A stretch of 64,000 bases of DNA from assembly GCA_902771935.1 (NCBI GenBank), contig CACXYM010000004.1:1-64000 (forward strand), given 5' to 3'. Below are positions 6,611 through 52,682 of the stretch, in pieces. The notes beneath the pieces were generated by a model that was given only the letters and a program-made list of their open reading frames with translations, had not been told where the DNA came from and did not search any database. Numbering within the stretch: the stretch's first letter is position 1; every line of letters begins with the position of its first letter. The DNA is from an uncultured Bacteroidales bacterium. Lineage in GTDB: Bacteria > Bacteroidota > Bacteroidia > Bacteroidales > Paludibacteraceae. Both the position numbers and the translations under genes were made by a program.

Positions 6611-7069
6611 TTAGTTTAATACTTGCGATTTAAAGGGAGCAGATTCTTCGGTAAGTTGGGTGAGAAGCGCGGAACGATTATCGATGGGACAAGCACGATA
6701 GCGGGAATAGCCTTCGAGTAAGGCAGCAGCGAAGGTCTCGTCCGATGAGAGACGGTTGTAAATAATGGACGTGAGCAGTTGCTGATTGCGCATGTAAGAT
6801 TTGTTAGAGCGCTGGATGATTTCGAGGCGCTGCGTGTTGATTTGTTCAGCAAAATCAGCGTCCTGTAACCACAATTTGGCATAGAGGGAAGCTGTTCCCA
6901 TCTTCTGGCGATGGAGCGTTTGTGCATCACTCCAATGTTCGGGTTTGTTTTGATAACAATAGCTCGTTTCGTAAATGCCGAAGAGTTTGCGTTGCGAGAT
7001 GTTAGACTTCTTGCCAAAGAGTTTTCCGGAAACGGTATCGACCGGGTCTTTATAAGTAATTTTTGCCAT
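6611..7069 (-). CDS. Hypothetical protein, 152 aa
   Basis: I do not recognise a named family. The protein starts MAKITYKDPVDTVSGKLFGK, is basic at the N-terminus, has no signal peptide or membrane segment, and is predicted mostly helical from about residue 55. The gene stands alone with its own strong promoter (7193-7224) and a 115-base leader carrying an 11-base tandem repeat. The start is the ATG at 7069; a second minus-strand frame over the same DNA has no support. The Bacteroidetes promoter and clean frame say it is real; the role is unknown. Confidence 0.75.
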   Translation of the reverse strand: MAKITYKDPVDTVSGKLFGKKSNISQRKLFGIYETSYCYQNKPEHWSDAQTLHRQKMGTASLYAKLWLQDADFAEQINTQRLEIIQRSNKSYMRNQQLLTSIIYNRLSSDETFAAALLEGYSRYRACPIDNRSALLTQLTEESAPFKSQVLN

Positions 7070-7103: not shown

Positions 7104-7192
7104 GCCTTATTGCAGGAGCAGCATTATCCTGTGTTAATCCTGTGTTAAAGCTGTGTTGATGAGGTGTTAATGTTGTGGCTTCATTTCGGGTG
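7104..7192. repeat. 89-base dispersed repeat, copy 1, with five 11-base units
   Basis: The units at 7128-7182 are CCTGTGTTAAT, CCTGTGTTAAA, GCTGTGTTGAT, GAGGTGTTAAT and GTTGTGGCTTC. The 89 bases match 52594-52682 at 80 of 89 positions in the same orientation. Here the element forms most of the transcribed leader of the minus-strand gene at 6611-7069, starting at its transcription start. Confidence 0.85.
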
Positions 7193-7300: not shown

Positions 7301-7538
7301 AATATACATCTACTGCAAAGTAGGAATACACATCTACTGATAAGAAGGGATATACATCTACTGCTAAGAAAGGATATACATCTACTGGTAGGAAGGGATT
7401 ACATCTAGTGGTATGAAGGGACCTATAATACTGCTATGGGGAAGTTTATAGTATACTCATGGAGAAGGTTGTAATCTTACCATGGAGAAAATTATAATAC
7501 GGATATTAAGAAATAAACATATACTGCTATGAAGAAAT
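7301..7538 (+). repeat. Leader tandem array: ten 23-25-base units ending at the start codon
   Basis: Units begin at 7301, 7325, 7350, 7374, 7398, 7421, 7445, 7469, 7492 and 7515. The best kept read ATATACATCTACTGCTAAGA plus AAGG. The last unit, ACATATACTGCTATGAAG plus AAAT, contains the true ATG (7529). Units 5 to 8 have ATG at the equivalent place followed by AAG, GGG or GAG. Similarity is highest in units 1-5. Confidence 0.85.
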
Positions 7539-9118
7539 TTACATCTTTTATTTTATTTTTTGCTTTGTCTATCAGCGTGTTTGCGTGGGATAGTCCGATT
7601 GCGTTACCGGATGTAGGCGATGCTTCTATTCGCGTTGTGAGCCAGAACGCCAAGAACTACATCACGAACTTTGAGGCAAGTAATCTTGATTGTTGGGGAT
7701 GCCCCAGAACGATGGAGTTATTTGAAGAAAAGACCACTCTGATGGCGAACGTGTTTCTGGCACTACAAGCCGATATCGTTGTTATCTGCGAGGCACAGCG
7801 TAATGACGAGATTTTGAGTTATATCTCGAATGCGATGAATACGCTGTCCGGAACTGATAGCTACACCTATATTATAGATGGTATTGCTGGAACAGTAGCA
7901 CCAGCCGGACAATATCAATCCATTAAGACGGGATATGTATACAACTACAAGAAACTGGCGTTGGAAGGTAATAGCGGTTCGCCTTATGCAAGTACAAGCG
8001 AAGAGTATTACTCACGCTTGCGCATACAAGAGTTTAGGGAGATAGCTACCGACGAGAAATTTATTCTCTCGGCGAACCATTTTAAGGCTAAAAGCGGTGG
8101 TGGAGACCAAGGCGAATCGACTCGTCTTAAGAATGTGGAAAACTTGGTAAATGAGTTGAAGTATAACTGGAATGATGACCCGGATAAGCTGATTGTAGGT
8201 GACTTGAACTCCTATACCGGCGAGCAGCCAATTTTGAACCTTGAGGCAGCAGGATATGCGGAGCAACTGACACGTTTTGACGAAAATGCTTACACGTATA
8301 TTTATGGCGGCGAAAAAGGTATTTTGGACCACGTGATGGCTAACTCTACAATGGCCAAGCAGATTACCGGCGCGTACGCTTTTAATATCAATAACGGCGA
8401 ATATACGGATAGCTGGAAATACAACTATTCCGACCATGATCCGGTGGTGGTGGGTCTGAAACTGAAAGCGGTAGCACCGACGCCAGATCCTGATCCCGAT
8501 CCGGATCCAGACCCAACCTGTCCTGATTACCAATGGGATTTCCGTACAGGCTTGAATGATTTTGCGGCACAAGGCGTTTCGGGTAATGCCAATTGGAATA
8601 CCAACGAGACCTATGGTCTAACTATTAACGGATACAACAAAGAGGATAATCAGGAAAGATGGTTAGTTTCGCCTAAACTGAACCTGTCAAAAGCGAAATC
8701 AGCTACGCTGAAACTGGATCACCAGATATATTACGATAACGGCGAAATAGGTGACTACGTGAACGATCAGACGATGTGGATAAGCTCCGACTACACGGAC
8801 AATGTGACTACGGCTAATTGGACGCAGTTAGTACTATCCGACTATCCGCAGAAATCCTACGCAGAAGCGACATCCGCCATTCCGTCCGCATTCCTGACCG
8901 ATAACGTGCGCATCGCGTTTAAGTACACAGCTGCTACGGCTGCGAACTCCAACTACTGGGAGGTTAAGACCGCTGCTGTTACCGGTGTGTGTGAGGCTGA
9001 AGCCATCGAACAGACAGAGATGCCTACCCTGCCGGCAAGTAAGTTCTTCAGGAACGGCGTGCTCTATATTTACCGCGACGGCAAGGTTTATAGTATAATG
9101 GGTACGCGGATTGAGTAA
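7529..9118 (+). CDS. Secreted endonuclease/exonuclease/phosphatase-family protein with C-terminal sorting-type tail
   Basis: 529 residues. A signal peptide (MKKFTSFILFFALSISVFAW) is followed by an endonuclease/exonuclease/phosphatase fold (about residues 25-310) with VVSQNAKNY, VICEAQRN, FILSANHFKAK, IVGDLNSYTG, DHVMANS and YSDHDPVVVG, the metal and catalytic Asn, Glu, Asp and His positions of the family. An acidic PDPDPDPDPDP linker leads to a beta-rich domain of the choice-of-anchor J type (about 330-500). The last 25 residues (KFFRNGVLYIYRDGKVYSI, then MGTRIE) match the tail of the BspA-like protein at 34291, which suggests a shared secretion or sorting signal. Extracellular DNA or phosphoester cleavage is the likely role; the substrate is unknown. 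Confidence 0.88.
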   Translation: MKKFTSFILFFALSISVFAWDSPIALPDVGDASIRVVSQNAKNYITNFEASNLDCWGCPRTMELFEEKTTLMANVFLALQADIVVICEAQRNDEILSYISNAMNTLSGTDSYTYIIDGIAGTVAPAGQYQSIKTGYVYNYKKLALEGNSGSPYASTSEEYYSRLRIQEFREIATDEKFILSANHFKAKSGGGDQGESTRLKNVENLVNELKYNWNDDPDKLIVGDLNSYTGEQPILNLEAAGYAEQLTRFDENAYTYIYGGEKGILDHVMANSTMAKQITGAYAFNINNGEYTDSWKYNYSDHDPVVVGLKLKAVAPTPDPDPDPDPDPTCPDYQWDFRTGLNDFAAQGVSGNANWNTNETYGLTINGYNKEDNQERWLVSPKLNLSKAKSATLKLDHQIYYDNGEIGDYVNDQTMWISSDYTDNVTTANWTQLVLSDYPQKSYAEATSAIPSAFLTDNVRIAFKYTAATAANSNYWEVKTAAVTGVCEAEAIEQTEMPTLPASKFFRNGVLYIYRDGKVYSIMGTRIE

Positions 9119-31599: not shown

Positions 31600-33285
31600 T
31601 TATAGTTCATTTTTGTTGACTTTTTTACTTACAAAGAATCCCGGCAAGTAGGTTTCTACAGCTCCTAAGATGACCGGCATAACCAGATACAAAGGTACCG
31701 GTTGCATATCTTTGCGGACATACTCTACGCGGTATGCAAGCGGCTCTTTCAAACCAGCACGAGGATTAGATTTCGGAATAAGGTGATTAACGAAATACTC
31801 CAATGCGCCTGCATTCTTGCTTATGATTTTGAAAGGAATATCATCGGTGCCATACACTTTACCCTTCAAACCGTGGTATGCAAACAGCACGTTGCCGCCC
31901 AAACGCTCGTTATCCGCTGAATATTTGAGGTGCATAGAATCGATGGCGCAGTTGAGTTCGATAGCAGCCAACGGACGAGTCATTTGAGCCAATTCGTTCG
32001 TATTGATATCCTTACCTTTGATTTCGATATCGAATTTGCCGGCTTTATTCATGTACATCTTGATCACACCATTCACTTTTCCGTCACCGACATGGGCGAT
32101 TGCGTTGATTACAGTGGTACTACCCCGTTTGTTACTGAAATCGCAGATAGAAGCTGTTACATTCTTAATCTGCATCTTGCCTAAGTTCTTATCGGAACAA
32201 AGTACGCCTACATCCAACGTATTCAACTTGGCATTGATAGCGTCAATCTTTATCGGCAGTTTGATTTGCATGAGCACGGTTTGTGGCATCGGATACGGAT
32301 GCGTTGGCGCCAATCGTGCGTCACGGAATGCCTCGAAGCGGTCGCCATTAACGGTAATCTGACTGAGCGCTATACCTTTAGAGAAATCCGTACGGAACGG
32401 ATTAAGCGGGCTTATCACGACGCTATTCAGATGCAAGTCTATCCACGTTGCCGGTTCTTTCATCTTCGGCGCTAAGTCACGGCGACCGCATGTGTTCCAA
32501 ATGCGTGTCTGTCCCAACGTAATCTCTCCTCCGTTTTCGGTAAACACTTTCTTCGCTTCGATACCCATCATTGTTTGTGCCATTTTCACTTGGAAGCGAT
32601 CCACATTGAGATTGTAAACGGAGTCATTATATCCGAATGTCGAGTCCTTCATATTATAGAACAAGTCGTTCAGTCCGACGGAAAGGCTATCAATCTCGAA
32701 GTTTATTTTCTCTTTCGCCATGCGGATCTTGGCATTCATTAATCCTACACCTAATTGATTGATAGCAAGGGCAGAATCTTTGATGCTATAAGCAGGATGA
32801 CGAAGCGAAATCGACAGACTGTCCACATTAAGCGCAACTTTGGCTTGCGACAGTTTAGTGGTAGCACTCATCTTCAGAACATCAATGCGGCGGGCTGCCA
32901 CAATCCGTTTGCGGAGCAGTTGTCCGTAATGAATATTAGACACTACCACATGCGGTATCTCCACGCGCAACGTGTCCAAAATCTTTTGACTTTCGTCTTT
33001 AGGACTTCTTCCTGACTCTTGGCTCTCGGTTTTTAACTCTTGGCTCTCGGCTTTTAACTCTCCGCTCTCGACTACTATACCTTCCACATCCACGCAGCCG
33101 GTCATAAGCAGCACGTGAATATGCTTAAAGTCAATTGCGACAGGCAAATCTGCCTTCTCTAACTGCTGACGAACTATCTTCTCCGCGTAACGGGAAGTCC
33201 ATACGTCTGCACACGTAACAAAGAGGATAACTAATGCGGCAAGAATGCCTACAACCCACAGGGTAATTTTGACTCCTTTTTTCAT
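31600..33285 (-). CDS. AsmA-like / DUF748-type envelope protein
   Basis: 561 residues. One N-terminal membrane helix (LWVVGILAALVILFVTCADV), then a long periplasmic beta-rich body with repeating short strands (LDVGVLCSDKNLGKMQIKNV, FDIEIKGKDINTNEL). AsmA-like proteins are associated with lipid transport to the outer membrane. Residues 72-91 (GELKAESQELKTESQES) are encoded by eight exact-length heptamers (33014-33069), an in-frame low-complexity insertion. First gene of a seven-gene operon; the start codon follows a five-unit 14-base leader array. Confidence 0.82.
   Translation of the reverse strand: MKKGVKITLWVVGILAALVILFVTCADVWTSRYAEKIVRQQLEKADLPVAIDFKHIHVLLMTGCVDVEGIVVESGELKAESQELKTESQESGRSPKDESQKILDTLRVEIPHVVVSNIHYGQLLRKRIVAARRIDVLKMSATTKLSQAKVALNVDSLSISLRHPAYSIKDSALAINQLGVGLMNAKIRMAKEKINFEIDSLSVGLNDLFYNMKDSTFGYNDSVYNLNVDRFQVKMAQTMMGIEAKKVFTENGGEITLGQTRIWNTCGRRDLAPKMKEPATWIDLHLNSVVISPLNPFRTDFSKGIALSQITVNGDRFEAFRDARLAPTHPYPMPQTVLMQIKLPIKIDAINAKLNTLDVGVLCSDKNLGKMQIKNVTASICDFSNKRGSTTVINAIAHVGDGKVNGVIKMYMNKAGKFDIEIKGKDINTNELAQMTRPLAAIELNCAIDSMHLKYSADNERLGGNVLFAYHGLKGKVYGTDDIPFKIISKNAGALEYFVNHLIPKSNPRAGLKEPLAYRVEYVRKDMQPVPLYLVMPVILGAVETYLPGFFVSKKVNKNEL
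33014..33069 (-). repeat. Eight in-frame heptamers inside the AsmA-like gene
   Basis: Plus-strand units: GACTCTT, GGCTCTC, GGTTTTT, AACTCTT, GGCTCTC, GGCTTTT, AACTCTC, CGCTCTC. Three units equal 21 bases, so the frame is restored. Confidence 0.85.
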
Positions 33286-33355
33286 GGTCTTTCTTAATTA
33301 ATAGTTTATAATTGATGGTTTATAATTAATGGCTTATAATTGATGGCTTATTTAT
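33286..33355 (-). repeat. Leader array: five 14-base units ending at the AsmA-like start codon
   Basis: On the minus strand: ATAAATAAGCCATC, AATTATAAGCCATT, AATTATAAACCATC, AATTATAAACTATT, AATTAAGAAAGACC, then ATG at 33285. It fills most of the roughly 100-base transcribed leader. Confidence 0.85.
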
Positions 33356-33743: not shown

Positions 33744-33775
33744 CTTGCACATTCCATTTTTTTGTACTACTTTTG
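33744..33775 (+). promoter_or_regulatory. Promoter of the small gene at 33962
   Basis: CTTG (33744-33747), 20 bases, TACTTTTG (33768-33775). Confidence 0.85.
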
Positions 33776-33797
33776 CACCCTCATTCGTTTCCGTCTA

Positions 33798-33940
33798 TTC
33801 CGACGGTCACCCGACGGTCGCCCGACAGTCACCCGACGGTCGACAGACGATTGAACGACGATGAGGTGTCTGTCAATCGACAGTGAATCGACGGTCAAGT
33901 ACACTTTTACTATACTACAAGTATACTTCAACTATGAGAC
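33798..33940 (+). repeat. Leader array: thirteen 11-base units ending at an ATG
   Basis: Exact 11-base phase throughout. Early units are TTCCGACGGTC, ACCCGACGGTC, GCCCGACAGTC, ACCCGACGGTC; later AATCGACAGTG, AATCGACGGTC, AAGTACACTTT, TACTATACTAC, AAGTATACTTC, and last AACTATGAGAC, which holds the ATG at 33934. It begins about 15 bases after the predicted transcription start. Confidence 0.88.
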
Positions 33941-33999
33941 ACAAAAAATTGGAAGTTCGCTATGCTCCAGCAGCAGTGGAAAGTAGAGCATCCTTTTGA
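33934..33999 (+). CDS. Possible 21-codon leader peptide overlapping the next gene
   Basis: ATG at 33934, inside the last repeat unit, opens MRHKKLEVRYAPAAVESRAS, then F and TGA at 33997. It overlaps the 76-codon gene (start 33962) in another frame. It may be a leader peptide that couples translation, or the true N-terminus joined by frameshift; the sequence does not decide. Confidence 0.4.
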   Translation: MRHKKLEVRYAPAAVESRASF

Positions 34000-34192
34000 G
34001 CAGTGGTATGACGAATACCTTGCAGAGATCTCTGCTACTGCTACCGAGAAGACCTCTTCCGAAGACGTCTCCGACTACATGCTGAGACATCAGGCCGAAA
34101 TCCTCGAGGCCCAAGCTGCTGCTCTCCGTGCCCAACTCAAAGCACGCCACCAACCACAACCTACTCCATCCCCTACTCCCGAAACTACATAA
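33962..34192 (+). CDS. Small hypothetical protein, 76 aa
   Basis: MLQQQWKVEHPFEQWYDEYL opens a short soluble protein, helical in the middle (DYMLRHQAEILEAQAAALRA) and ending in a Pro/Thr-rich tail (QPQPTPSPTPETT). I do not recognise a family. A strong promoter and a repeat-array leader stand upstream and a hairpin downstream (34221), so it is an independent unit. A start at 33934 in another frame is discussed separately. Confidence 0.65.
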   Translation: MLQQQWKVEHPFEQWYDEYLAEISATATEKTSSEDVSDYMLRHQAEILEAQAAALRAQLKARHQPQPTPSPTPETT

Positions 34193-34290: not shown

Positions 34291-37200
34291 TTACTTCACT
34301 TCCTGTCCTTGCACACTATAAGTCTTTCCGTCACGGAGGATGTACAATTGACCGTTATGGATAAATTTGGTAGTCGTTGGCACTTGGTTAATAGTCGTTT
34401 GACTTGTCGGCGTAGTTACCTCGTCTGTGGTGAACGACATGACCTTTTGATCAAGGGTCGTGCCACTACTATTCTTCGCTGTGATAGTTAAATCGTACCC
34501 TGTTCCGCTATCTAAGCCCGTTACAGTAAAAGAGAATCCGTCTGCTTGTGTTTGATTCGGGCTTCTGCGACCAGGTGCATTAAATGCAATAGAAGTCAAT
34601 TGCCCTTGCTCATTAAATAAAAGCGTACAGATTACATTACCTGATTTATCTCTGATAACGAGTTCATAACTCGCAGCACCACTAATAGAAGGCCAAACGA
34701 TAGTAACAGCTGTTTCAGTAGGCTCTAATTGCACCTCTTCTGTGGTAGTGGGTTTTGCACCTAAGGGACGCACGTCATATAGTCCCCAAGAATCGTGCAT
34801 CACGTAATTATTTAAGTAATCGGCAGGGACATAAACAATCGTGGAATACGGCAGCCCTTCAAGTGCGTTATTATTTACAGTTGGCGGACGCTGACTATAG
34901 CAGGTTATCATTTCAATAGACGTACAGCCTGAGAAAGCCTTAGCCTCAAGAACTTTAACAGAAGAGCCGAAGATGACAGTTCGTAAGTCGGTAAATTCTG
35001 CGAATGCGGATTTCCCTATAACCGTTATCTCGTTGCCGATAGTCAACGATTTTACATATGTTCCATAGGTGTAGTTCTCTGAGAGTGTGCCACTACCTGT
35101 AATATCCAGAGACATTAAAGTAGTGTCTAAAATCCACCTGAGCGCATTGTTTTGACCGCAAAAATTGGACAATAGATAGTCGAATATTGCCTCCATTGTA
35201 GTATCTTGCGTCAATTCTACTGTCCGTGGGTTATTCGTACTGCCATCTGCCCACTGCATAAAGCGGTATCCACGATTAGGCATTGCAGTGAATGTTACCA
35301 AAGATTCGCATATAAGCAATTCACTAATATTATTGGATACATAACCATTTTGTGCTAACATTGAAATCTTATATGGCCGTGGTGCATACTGAACTCTATC
35401 ATCATTTAACATTTGTTTGAAACGTCCTATCTCTCCACAAGGCACATAGATAGAAGCCAAACTCGTGCATCCATAGAAAGCAGAACCTCCAATACTTGTG
35501 ACACTATTGGGAATAGTTACAGATGCCAAACTCGTGCAATCATAGAAAGCAGAACTTCCAATACTTGTGACACTATTGGGAATAGTTACAGATGCCAAAC
35601 TCGTGCAATTCATGAAAGCATATTCTCCAATACTTGTGACACCATTGGGAATAGTTACAGATGTCAAACTCGTGCAACCATAGAAAGCCCTATCTCCAAT
35701 GCTTGTGACGCTATTGGGAATAGTTATAGATGCCAAACTCGTGCAACCATAGAAAGCATTGTATCCAATCCATTTTGTGCCTTCTTTGATAGCATAGGTT
35801 GATAACGACTTGTCAATAGCCTCTACCAAATATGTATCTGCATAACGAATATTGTCAATAATTGGTAAGTTGGTACATCCAGAGAAAGCACCAATTCCAA
35901 TACTTGTGACACTATTGGGAATAATAACAGATGTTAAACGGGTGCAATTCATGAAAGCCCGAGGTCCAATCCATTTTGTGCTTTCTTTGATATGACATGT
36001 TGATAGGGACGTGTCAACAGCCCCGATCAAATACGTATCAGCATAACGAATATTATCAACAACTGGCAAACTCGTGCAACCATAGAAAGCAGAACTTCCA
36101 ATACTTGTGACACTATTGGGAATAGTTACAGATGCCAAACTCGTGCAACCATAGAAAGCAGAACCTCCAATACTTGTGACACTATTACCAATGGTTACAG
36201 ATTCCAAACCAGTGCAACCATAGAAAGCCCTATCTCCAATGCTTGTGACGCTATTGGGAATAGTCACTGAAGTTAGATTAGTGCAACTATAAAAAGCATA
36301 TTTTCCAATGCTCGTGACACTATTGGGAATAGTTACAGATGCCAAACTCGTGCAACCATAGAAAGCAGAACCTCCAATACTTGTGACACTATTGGGAATA
36401 GTTACAGATGCCAAACTCGTGCAACCATAGAAAGCAGAACCTCCAATACTTGTGACACTATTGGGAATAGTCACTGAAGTTAGATTAGTGCAACTATAAA
36501 AAGCATATTTTCCAATGCTCGTGACACTATTTGGAATAGTGATAGAGCTCAGACTCGTGCAACCAGAGAAAGTCTCGGCTCCGATGCTTGTGACACTGTT
36601 TGGTATAGTTAAGGCAAGCATTTTTTTGCAATTCATGAAAGCATATTCTCCAATGCTTATAATGCTGTTAGGGATAGTCACCGAGGTCAAACTACTGCAA
36701 CTAGAGAATGCGTTCTCTCCAATGCTTATGACACTATTCGGAATAGTAACAGATGTTAAACGGGTGCAATTCTTGAAAGCCTGAGATCCAATCCATTTTG
36801 TGCCTTCTTTGATAGCATAGGTTGATAACGACTTGTCAACAGCCCCTATCAAATACGTATCAGCATAACGAATATTGTCAAAAACTGGCAAACCACTGCA
36901 ACCATAGAAAGCATCACGTTCAATACTTGTGACACTATTGGGAATAGTTATAGATGTCAAACTCGTGCAATTATAGAAAGCATTGTATCCAATCCATTTT
37001 GTGCCTTCTTTGATAGTATAGGTTGATAACGACTTGTCAATAGCCTCTACCAAATATGTATCTGCATAACGAATATTGTCAATAACTGGTAAGTTGGTAC
37101 ATCCAGAGAAAGCACCGATTCCAATACTTGTGACACTATTGGGAATAGTTACAGATGCCAAACTCGTGCAACCATGGAAAGCAGAACCTCCAATACTTGT

Positions 37201-37563
37201 GACACTATTGGGAATAGTTACAGATGCCAAACTCGTGCATCCATAGAAAGCATCATCTCCAATGCTCGTGACGCTATTAGGAATCGTCAAAGAGGTTAAG
37301 CTCCTGCAATCTTCGAAGGCTCGTGCTCCAATACCCGTAACACTATAATTTGTTCCATTATAGTTAATAGAGGCAGGAATATTTGCTATTATTAGACCAG
37401 AATAGTTTTCCTGTAATAATTGATATTCGTACGTCACCTCTGCTTTTTTATTTTCTACATCAAGATTATAGTACAAATCGCCGATTTGAACCTTTTCGGC
37501 TGCAAAAATAATTCCTACGCTTGCTACTAAAGCAAGGAATAAAGTAAATAATTTCGTTTTCAT
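34291..37563 (-). CDS. BspA-like leucine-rich-repeat surface protein
   Basis: 1090 residues. Signal peptide [20 protein letters not shown]; then about 25 LRR_5 units of roughly 23 residues ([20 protein letters not shown]) over about residues 60-720, interrupted by four copies of a [19 protein letters not shown] plus TKWIG cassette. An InlB-like beta segment, a second short LRR block, an FN3-like domain ([17 protein letters not shown]) and a C-terminal tail [20 protein letters not shown] plus QEVK follow. BspA-type proteins bind host proteins or other bacteria. The DNA repeats are near-identical and favour recombination. ATG at 37563 fits the signal peptide; an upstream in-frame start is rejected. 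Confidence 0.92.
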
Positions 37564-37642
37564 AATGGTATATGCTTTATAGATGTTAAAATAATTAACA
37601 GCTGATGTGCTGATAATAAAGATAACTTCCAAAAGTGAATGA

Positions 37643-38809
37643 TTATTTTTGTCTACTTCTATTGTCAAACTCATGTTTTATTTGGTTCATAATTTTGTCT
37701 GTTTCGGGAAATAACGCAGCTTCGTTAATACCAAAAACATTAAGATCTCTCAAAATAGCATCCTTACTCTCTGCTAGAATTCTAATTCTTATTATAGAAT
37801 CAGTAAATTCAGCCGGTTTTTCTTTTGAATTGTCCAACCCGAAAATTAAAAATGCCCCTTGTTGACGAAGAATTCTTTCATTGTTGAATTTTGGTTTAAC
37901 ACATATGATTTGGTTTATGGTTTCCGATTTTAGATATTGTTCTTTAAAGTGAGGATTATCCTTCTGTATATCATATAATAGGTGTTTGTTATCTCTGGAA
38001 AATACAAATTCGGCCGGCTGTTTTGCTAAATTAGCTAATATACGAACTTCATCACTGTCATTGTAATGAATTTGTTCTCCAAGCATAGGGAAAATTAACA
38101 CTTCACCATCTTTTTCTTTTTCTTCTTTGCAAGCAAAATACAATGCCACTAACGGATTAGTTGAAATATCAAGTAACCTAGTAGGTAATCCATAATGTTG
38201 AATCTTTACCAGATTATCAAAAGTACTCATATCATCTGTAAAATCATACGAATCTCTCCTTATGGCTTCATAGTACATTCTATGTTCGTATTTCATATAA
38301 TTTTTATCTCGCAATACACTAGGAGACGGTTCAAAAGTACAATCGGCATGTCCTCTGAAAAAATACTCTAATTCATCATTCTCATCAGTGAATATATTTT
38401 TTGATAATCTCTCGTAAAAAGCAGAAAAGTTGTCTATGGTATACTTGATATCACATTTCTTCTTTTTTTGCAATTTAGACAAAGGCATCCTCTCAAGGTA
38501 AGAGTCTTCAGTTGAATATACGAGATAAACTTCTTCTGCCGATGTTGCTTCCTTGTATAGTTGAAGCTGACTCTTTATGAAATTATAATTTCTATTTACA
38601 GCATTATACGACCTTATCTCATACAGAAACTTGATGCTATTTTTCTCCAAGACCACGAGATCAAATTCATACGTAGTTCCATCTTTTTTTACATATCTAT
38701 AATGAGTTTTTATATTATCTACTGTAGTACCCAGTTCTGATGAAAGAATTTCTTTTAACTGATTAAACAGTTTTTCTTCATATTCATGATATGACGATAA
38801 CGGTATCAT
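37643..38809 (-). CDS. FRG-domain protein with PD-(D/E)XK-like N-terminus
   Basis: 388 residues, soluble. The FRG core is clear: FFRGHAD near 150-156 and [20 protein letters not shown] at 202-221 followed by ALYFACKEE. Before it, residues 36-100 ([20 protein letters not shown], with D50 and E64-I-R66 then VYLVYST) resemble a restriction-endonuclease fold in which the usual Lys is Arg. FRG domains occur in defence-related and toxin-like proteins, but their chemistry is unknown to me. The gene is AT-richer than its neighbours and has a long structured leader; both hint at recent acquisition. It is a lone gene, 80 bases before the BspA-like gene. Confidence 0.85.
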
Positions 38810-52593: not shown

Positions 52594-52682
52594 GCCTTAT
52601 AGTAGGAGCCGTATTATCCTGTGTTAATCCTGTGTTAATCCTGTGTTGATGAGGTGTTAATGTTGTGGATTCACTTCGAGTG
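52594..52682. repeat. 89-base dispersed repeat, copy 2
   Basis: It matches 7104-7192 at 80 of 89 bases. Units at 52618-52672: CCTGTGTTAAT twice, CCTGTGTTGAT, GAGGTGTTAAT, GTTGTGGATTC. Here no gene follows on the minus strand before the rsmE promoter, so this copy is orphan. Between it and 52829 are a degenerate minus-strand promoter-like string (52790-52824) and no gene. Confidence 0.85.

Follow-up and report, generated by a model that had tools for sequence, protein, structure and literature searches.

RAYT genes have been described together with cognate REP repeats (Nunvar 2010, PMC2817692), and in ParR-parC systems a DNA-binding protein sits on direct repeats upstream of its own operon, the repeats being 11 bp long in plasmid R1 and the specificity differing between families (PMC9426499). 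Heptamer repeats of the TAACTGA type are reported from Beggiatoaceae, Cyanobacteria and a few Bacteroidetes, with two sets of them in Paludibacter propionicigenes (MacGregor 2015, PMC4679880). Here we describe leaders built from 11-bp direct repeats, for which we found no description in the open-licence literature, starting from one such array in a window of 64,000 nucleotides (the whole stretch of DNA analysed, from an uncultured bacterium of the Paludibacteraceae). In one group of uncultured gut bacteria such leaders precede genes for small orphan proteins, and copies of the repeats are scattered elsewhere in the genome, a pattern suggesting that each of the proteins may be able to recognise the repeat of its own leader.

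Results

The array (Table 1) consists of thirteen 11-base units over 143 bases with the phase unbroken throughout, as the initial annotation had read it; the units, which it called exact, agree in length and differ in sequence. Identity at lag 11 was 0.614 across the 143 bases, compared with a mean of 0.249 (sd 0.040, maximum 0.386) in 5000 dinucleotide shuffles. The promoter-like sequence upstream presumably functions as such, judging from the Bacteroidales consensus, and transcription would probably start ahead of the array. The last unit does contain an ATG (33934), which opens nothing longer than a 21-aa frame. No inverted repeats that other copies retain bound the window array: a 14-nt A/T-rich pair flanking it was not kept in the related copies C7, C1 or C5 (by eye), and terminal inverted repeats common to copies, a feature of MITEs, were not seen for it. 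A reading of the leader as an RNA structure was set aside, as its folding energy was ordinary (z -0.95, no special RNA fold) and the sole Rfam row lay far under the gathering score. A tandem-peptide reading was likewise dropped: within ORFs a 33-base period does encode a repeat of 11 aa, yet no reading frame is kept across the leader units.

Table 1. Array-related features in the window (positions count from its first letter).
Feature	Position	Strand	Remarks
152-aa orphan basic protein MAKITYKDPVDTVSGKL...	6611..7069	-	own 11-bp leader array; no Pfam/NCBIfam family listed
Leader array, unit ATCCTGTGTTA as read on + strand	7126..7157	-	lag 11 periodicity, z 4.8-5.2
Promoter-like sequence	33745..33775	+	TTG 33745-33747, 20-base spacer, TACTTTTG 33768-33775; read by eye
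11-bp array, thirteen units	33798..33940	+	core unit near CCCGACGGTCA; later units diverged, in phase
21-aa frame from last-unit ATG	33934..33999	+	in the intact paralogue the same ATG lies in the leader, before the likely start
Deletion junction, 323 nt relative to C7 paralogue	33946..33947		start codon and N-terminal part gone
Family-1 gene 3' remnant	33947..34192	+	query 95-166, 89% identical
Solo array, unit ATCCTGTGTTA	52616..52661	-	no such gene seen beside it

The initial annotation had taken the array as the leader of a small gene at 33962. That gene turned out to be a 5'-truncated remnant, its start removed by the deletion listed in Table 1 (alignment blocks 33797-33946 and 33947-34150 of the window against 1554-1703 and 2027-2230 of the C7 copy), and ATG 33962 corresponds to an internal methionine of the intact family-1 protein. 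Near copies of the window leader occur in its own genome at C7 (97%), C1 (95%), C5 (84%) and C8 (78%); promoter and leader are common to the window and C7:255390-255595 (97%, query 6-210), where they precede an intact gene for a 167-aa orphan protein. Both the window and the C7 copy have retained thirteen units. Between them the array block is 98.7% identical (2 differences in 150) and the coding remnant 93.6% (13 in 204; p=0.03), a disparity which favours a reading that we hold unlikely, though it is the main rival to the one preferred below, namely that a selfish short repeat spreads, with the leader as its usual home and the protein as passenger or helper, as in RAYT-REP pairs.

The best match of C7 in another species (genome G246) has a leader of equal length, 209 nt, without an indel. 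The two leaders are identical at 195 of 209 positions (93%), the arrays at 130 of 143 and the stretch directly before the start at 38 of 38, whereas about 41 of 69 fourfold sites are identical (59%; Fisher 8e-10 for leader against fourfold sites, the leader taken as 194/209). Array identity also exceeded fourfold-site identity in 68/68 family pairs; since the pairs lack independence and aligning repeats with gaps inflates identity, the conservation argument is carried by the ungapped C7-G246 pair. As its leaders are 93% identical without indels, the unit number is fixed there, which is the unchanged unit content among orthologues that the initial annotation had itself named as refuting its proposal. 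Two further parts of that proposal did not hold up: the array is not decaying, given that its "diverged" end units are conserved in G246, and tuning by copy number is at odds with a 209-nt leader free of indels in C7 and G246 and with thirteen units kept in the window and C7. Between family-1 subfamilies, array length and unit sequence do vary. Neutral slippage, in which a lineage prone to short tandem repeats retains them where they are tolerated (the process which the initial annotation had in mind), leaves unit number and sequence free to vary, which was not found in the C7 and G246 leaders. We consider it highly improbable, and for these leaders already strained, the leader being conserved above synonymous sites; spread of a selfish repeat alone also leaves this slow evolution unexplained.

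The initial annotation had seen the same plan in other leaders of the window, and such leaders do recur beyond chance: in 458 kb of the window's own genome, 7 of the 44 leaders with a promoter were periodic at p<0.005, compared with 0 of 35 in 280 kb of other genera (Fisher p=0.016). The other leaders singled out in the window were also non-random, at lags of 11 (7128), 24 (7301) and 14 (33286), with 0 of 200 shuffles as high in each case. The leader at 7128 follows the same plan with a different 11-base unit and precedes another small orphan protein. The 24-bp leader array (window 7302-7544) lies ahead of a gene with an endonuclease/phosphatase domain (7529-9118), and the 14-bp one, TAATTAATGGCTTA (window 33295-33351), ahead of a minus-strand gene (31600-33285). 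Among family genes of the own genome with a recognised promoter, 8/8 were array-led, compared with 1/41 other leaders (Fisher 2e-8; the eight were drawn from the whole genome and the 41 from the 458-kb sample), a contrast that counts against neutral slippage. The eight are C7, C16, C1, C6, C5, C3, C4:68 kb and the window gene 6611-7069; seven were shuffle-tested and C16 was assigned by best lag only. Four own-genome proteins with the N-terminal motif and no recognised promoter were without arrays (two further rows were judged spurious), and two remote members in G021 were also without an array.

Homologues of the intact protein (family 1) were found in 53 of 121 genus genomes and measure 114-182 aa, one 68-aa broken copy aside. 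The best lag was 11 or 22 in 47 of 53 evaluable leaders in all, that is in 30 of 34 in a first set (36 listed, 2 too short) and 17 of 19 in a second (20 listed, 1 too short), counts that give the best lag without shuffles and include some loci closely related to each other. The units differ by subfamily (CCCGACGGTCA, CCCATAGGTCR, CCCGAAGGTCR, GAACGACGGTC, ATCGTCGGTCA, CCGTAAGTCGG). In G150 and G253 paralogues within one genome carry different units, and those matched by N-terminal likeness have CCCGAAGGTCR and GAACGACGGTC in common. As far as these sequences go, leader units follow gene lineage, not genome, a link that vertical inheritance alone can produce. In one subfamily (L038, L050, L279 and similar) a conserved A/T palindrome-like stretch, TATATTATATATTTATATATAATATA, lies between array and start. 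A second family (family 2, MARITYLDPI...) was found in 48 of 61 genus genomes, and its leaders had a best lag of 11 or 22 at p<0.01 against mononucleotide shuffles in 23 of 30 cases in a first set (of 33 loci, 3 had no identifiable start) and 16 of 20 in a second, the sets overlapping by two loci and one start in the second being probably wrong; many of the units have a GTGATT core. The 7 proteins whose pI was computed are all basic (8.7-10.1), and none of the five tested had a Pfam/NCBIfam match above cut-off (a few weak rows, E 0.03-0.13). The predicted structure is a beta hairpin with three helices, and the 115-residue model (mean pLDDT 78.6) had no PDB match at E<=0.001. That all these proteins form one superfamily is unproven; an N-terminal motif and weak profile matches (best E 4e-4) point to it.

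Units like those of the leaders also occur on their own. TRF detected 21 solo arrays in 458 kb of the own genome (minimum 2.7 copies at period 11 or 1.9 at period 22, after removal of known leader arrays), and 12 of the 21 matched a leader unit at <=2 mismatches, 7 of the 12 being one unit, while shuffled units gave a mean of 1.1 matches and a maximum of 5 in 300 rounds. For the five solo copies of the family-1 leader in the own genome, inspection by eye showed neither a promoter within 120 bases upstream nor a family gene; all five precede a promoter-like site that belongs to another gene and has the same direction. Solo arrays of AAGGTGATTAA were present in both orientations, with no preferred direction and often near 3' ends. 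In other genomes the GTGATT pattern matched 85 times in G236 (reversed control 25), 80 times in G206 (control 6) and 103 times in G230 (control 102, the unit itself containing the control pattern). Among the matches listed, which gave array places for two of the seven genomes queried, the G236 arrays mostly carried one or the other of the units present in its two detected family-2 leaders, and the G230 arrays had the unit of its leader. In G050 the unit of the sole detected family-2 leader differs from the GTGATT arrays, and G206 has no family-2 match at E<=1e-6 despite its 80 GTGATT matches. Several GTGATT arrays in G206 and G236 lie a few hundred bases from contig ends, as if within longer assembly-breaking repeats.

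Because units recur at unlinked sites, a spreading process must also exist. Local duplication of the initiation region, which had been proposed as the sole origin of the arrays, does not account for the same units at unlinked sites and also mid-ORF, and identical units at unlinked loci likewise argue against neutral slippage. The selfish repeat gains from the many array sites per genome (the GTGATT matches in G230, G236 and G206) and from the many G206 arrays without a family-2 match; it loses from the absence of a Y1 transposase in the own genome (PF01797, 0 matches; positive in 5 of 14 controls) and from array-bounding inverted repeats not being kept in other copies.

Arrays were also present inside genes. 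From named genomes 113 arrays were kept, 62 of them sense and 3 antisense within predicted ORFs, by a crude ORF caller and with many of the 62 near starts or in short ORFs; this count and the exact-run count below left out six of 119 stretches as non-Bacteroidales, one of which (L123) is Paludibacteraceae. Clear mid-gene arrays occur in ileS, an ABC-F gene, an AroA-glycosyltransferase fusion and a glutamate-synthase-like fusion (gene names by reading). Three 11-base units span 33 bases, which preserves the frame; the antisense of an AAC-spaced array has a stop when read by codon. The ileS linker was array-built in 34 of 72 parsed loci (90 examined, 18 not parsed) and in none of 100 shuffle rounds, with period 11 at 16 loci and period 7 at 9. 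This linker, which lies between conserved ileS motifs (loci L168-L257), is 14 to 43 aa long in the parsed loci, and the repeat lengths in the 34 array-built ones are 7, 8, 9, 11, 14 or 15 bases. In L127 an AroA-glycosyltransferase-like fusion gene contains three copies of a second in-frame repeat, FP[LS]GRDGVG. Arrays within ileS and other genes are not operators, and those in the ileS linker indicate that repeats also spread where a leader function is impossible; their presence in the open frames of ileS, ABC-F-like, glutamate-synthase-like and other genes favours the selfish repeat. In Rickettsia palindromic elements, too, a repeat is inserted in frame in protein genes, although these elements have no tandem array and no leader role.

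For neutral slippage speak the many unit types, with ileS linker arrays of 7, 8, 9, 11, 14 and 15 bases, and the excess of period-7 and long period-11 arrays over other genera: TRF gave 66 period-11 arrays per Mb in the own genome compared with 46 in other genera, and 13 own rows listed reached 3.5 copies, compared with 0 rows from other genera. Strict two-copy exact runs, with CGAC arrays masked, had no generic 11-base excess (lag 7: 79; lag 11: 11). Arrays of 7 bp number 61 per Mb in the own genome (L315-L334) and 14 per Mb in the family's other genera, and 69-bp repeats (window 35452-37284) lie in a BspA-like leucine-rich-repeat gene (34291-37674, minus).

Genes of this kind fall into at least two multi-copy families, mostly led by 11-bp arrays with lineage-specific units, and families 1 and 2 are confined to this genus among the genomes sampled. 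The family-1 profile matched 2 of 295 order genomes, both of this genus, and family 2 matched 1 of 198 genomes in a search outside the genus, the own genome alone. A phage or plasmid origin was rejected for family 2, the family searched there, which had no match in plasmids or phages. The CGACRGTC array was found in 25 of 35 genus genomes and in none of 165 genomes spread over 32 other genera of the family (its reversed control had no match in the genus and two in other genera); of the 119 stretches fetched from the named collection, among the matches listed, 114 were titled Bacteroidales, Bacteroidia or Paludibacteraceae, and six stretches of viral contigs held the pattern. CGAC matches, leaders included, were present in 46 of 53 family-1-positive genomes (median 11) compared with 32 of 68 negative ones (median 0). 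With 3 matches per gene subtracted for leaders, the figures were 37/53 (median 7) and 32/68 (median 0; Mann-Whitney 8e-6), and with 4 subtracted 34/53 positive genomes (median 5; Mann-Whitney 2e-4). For family 2, arrays were present in 34 of 48 genomes with the gene and 6 of 13 without, which is not significant (Fisher 0.11, Mann-Whitney 0.06); all these statistics ignore shared ancestry and assembly gaps.

Discussion

We put first, tentatively and with rather less than even confidence, a reading in which each small basic protein controls itself by recognising the phased array of its own gene, directly or through a dedicated partner, and in which the arrays spread as solo copies. It sets out from the arrays, their conservation, their link with the families, the partial matching of units and the restriction to one genus in the sample. 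A small orphan gene would have a conserved 5' array leader, the window array having been left before a broken copy; the encoded protein or its partner would bind cooperatively, with a site for roughly every helical turn of the array, and binding would limit the protein's own expression. The solo arrays would be either additional sites at which the same factor acts or copies that have spread from its site. The phase of about a helical turn, the conservation, the private units and the basic proteins fit such cooperative self-recognition, and we keep this operator reading first because the leader evolves more slowly than silent sites. Binding, self-control and the role of the solo arrays are what we infer, binding because the predicted structure is without a solved relative. 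Counted against the operator reading are the unsuccessful search for a DNA-binding fold, the in-gene arrays, the non-significance for family 2, G206 and G050, the two orientations of AAGGTGATTAA, vertical inheritance and the four promoterless motif proteins without arrays. It and the selfish repeat may both hold.

The array could also act at the RNA level, a protein or ribosome component binding the mRNA repeats and setting translation, as proposed for TAACTGA. The family-leader arrays lie between promoter and start in one direction, the proteins are basic and the host lineage makes little use of Shine-Dalgarno pairing, all of which speak for it; the ordinary folding energy of the leader and the solo arrays without a visible upstream promoter, in both orientations, do not agree with it, and we judge it improbable. 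Distinctly improbable, in our estimate, is a bolder extension of the operator reading, in which a genus-specific set of small orphan proteins, with each private 11-bp array read by its own protein only, would make up many insulated self-controlled circuits within one genome, and the proteins would also promote the copying of their arrays to new sites, leaders and open frames included, without a known transposase.

Should each protein recognise its own array, a single genome would contain several pairs of small protein and matching 11-bp site that descended from one another. Such pairs would be a natural collection in which to study shifts of recognition specificity, and might supply parts for insulated gene circuits in gut Bacteroidales. 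Should the arrays be selfish, they would form a repeat family that spreads in leaders and within essential genes with no transposase in evidence. In both cases a first function open to testing would be gained for two protein families that have no model in the libraries searched.

No known system that we compared fits all tested features. The BrickBuilt MITE of Porphyromonas gingivalis, as described in PMC4596501, is likewise a tandem minisatellite of the Bacteroidales with dispersed copies, but has a 23-nt unit and terminal inverted repeats and is always intergenic. The TAACTGA repeats (PMC4679880) resemble the present ones as short direct repeats toward start codons, also in ORFs and scattered over the genome, but are described there with a single 7-bp unit and no cognate gene family. 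ParR-parC, in the account of PMC9426499, agrees with the present loci in having phased direct repeats by the promoter of the protein's own gene; here the arrays are chromosomal and multi-copy, and the proteins have no ribbon-helix-helix match. In RAYT-REP pairs, as set out in PMC2817692, palindromes in inverted orientation flank the gene, whereas here 11-bp direct arrays lie in the 5' leader, only some units being near-palindromic (CGACNGTCG) and others such as CCCATAGGTCA not, and the proteins, of about 113-182 aa, had no Y1 (HUH) domain that we could find. With that system the present loci nevertheless have in common a gene, an adjoining private repeat and matching copies genome-wide. The correlation of gene presence with repeat abundance in that system had a counterpart here in family 1, also with leader matches discounted, and was not significant in family 2, relatedness being uncorrected.
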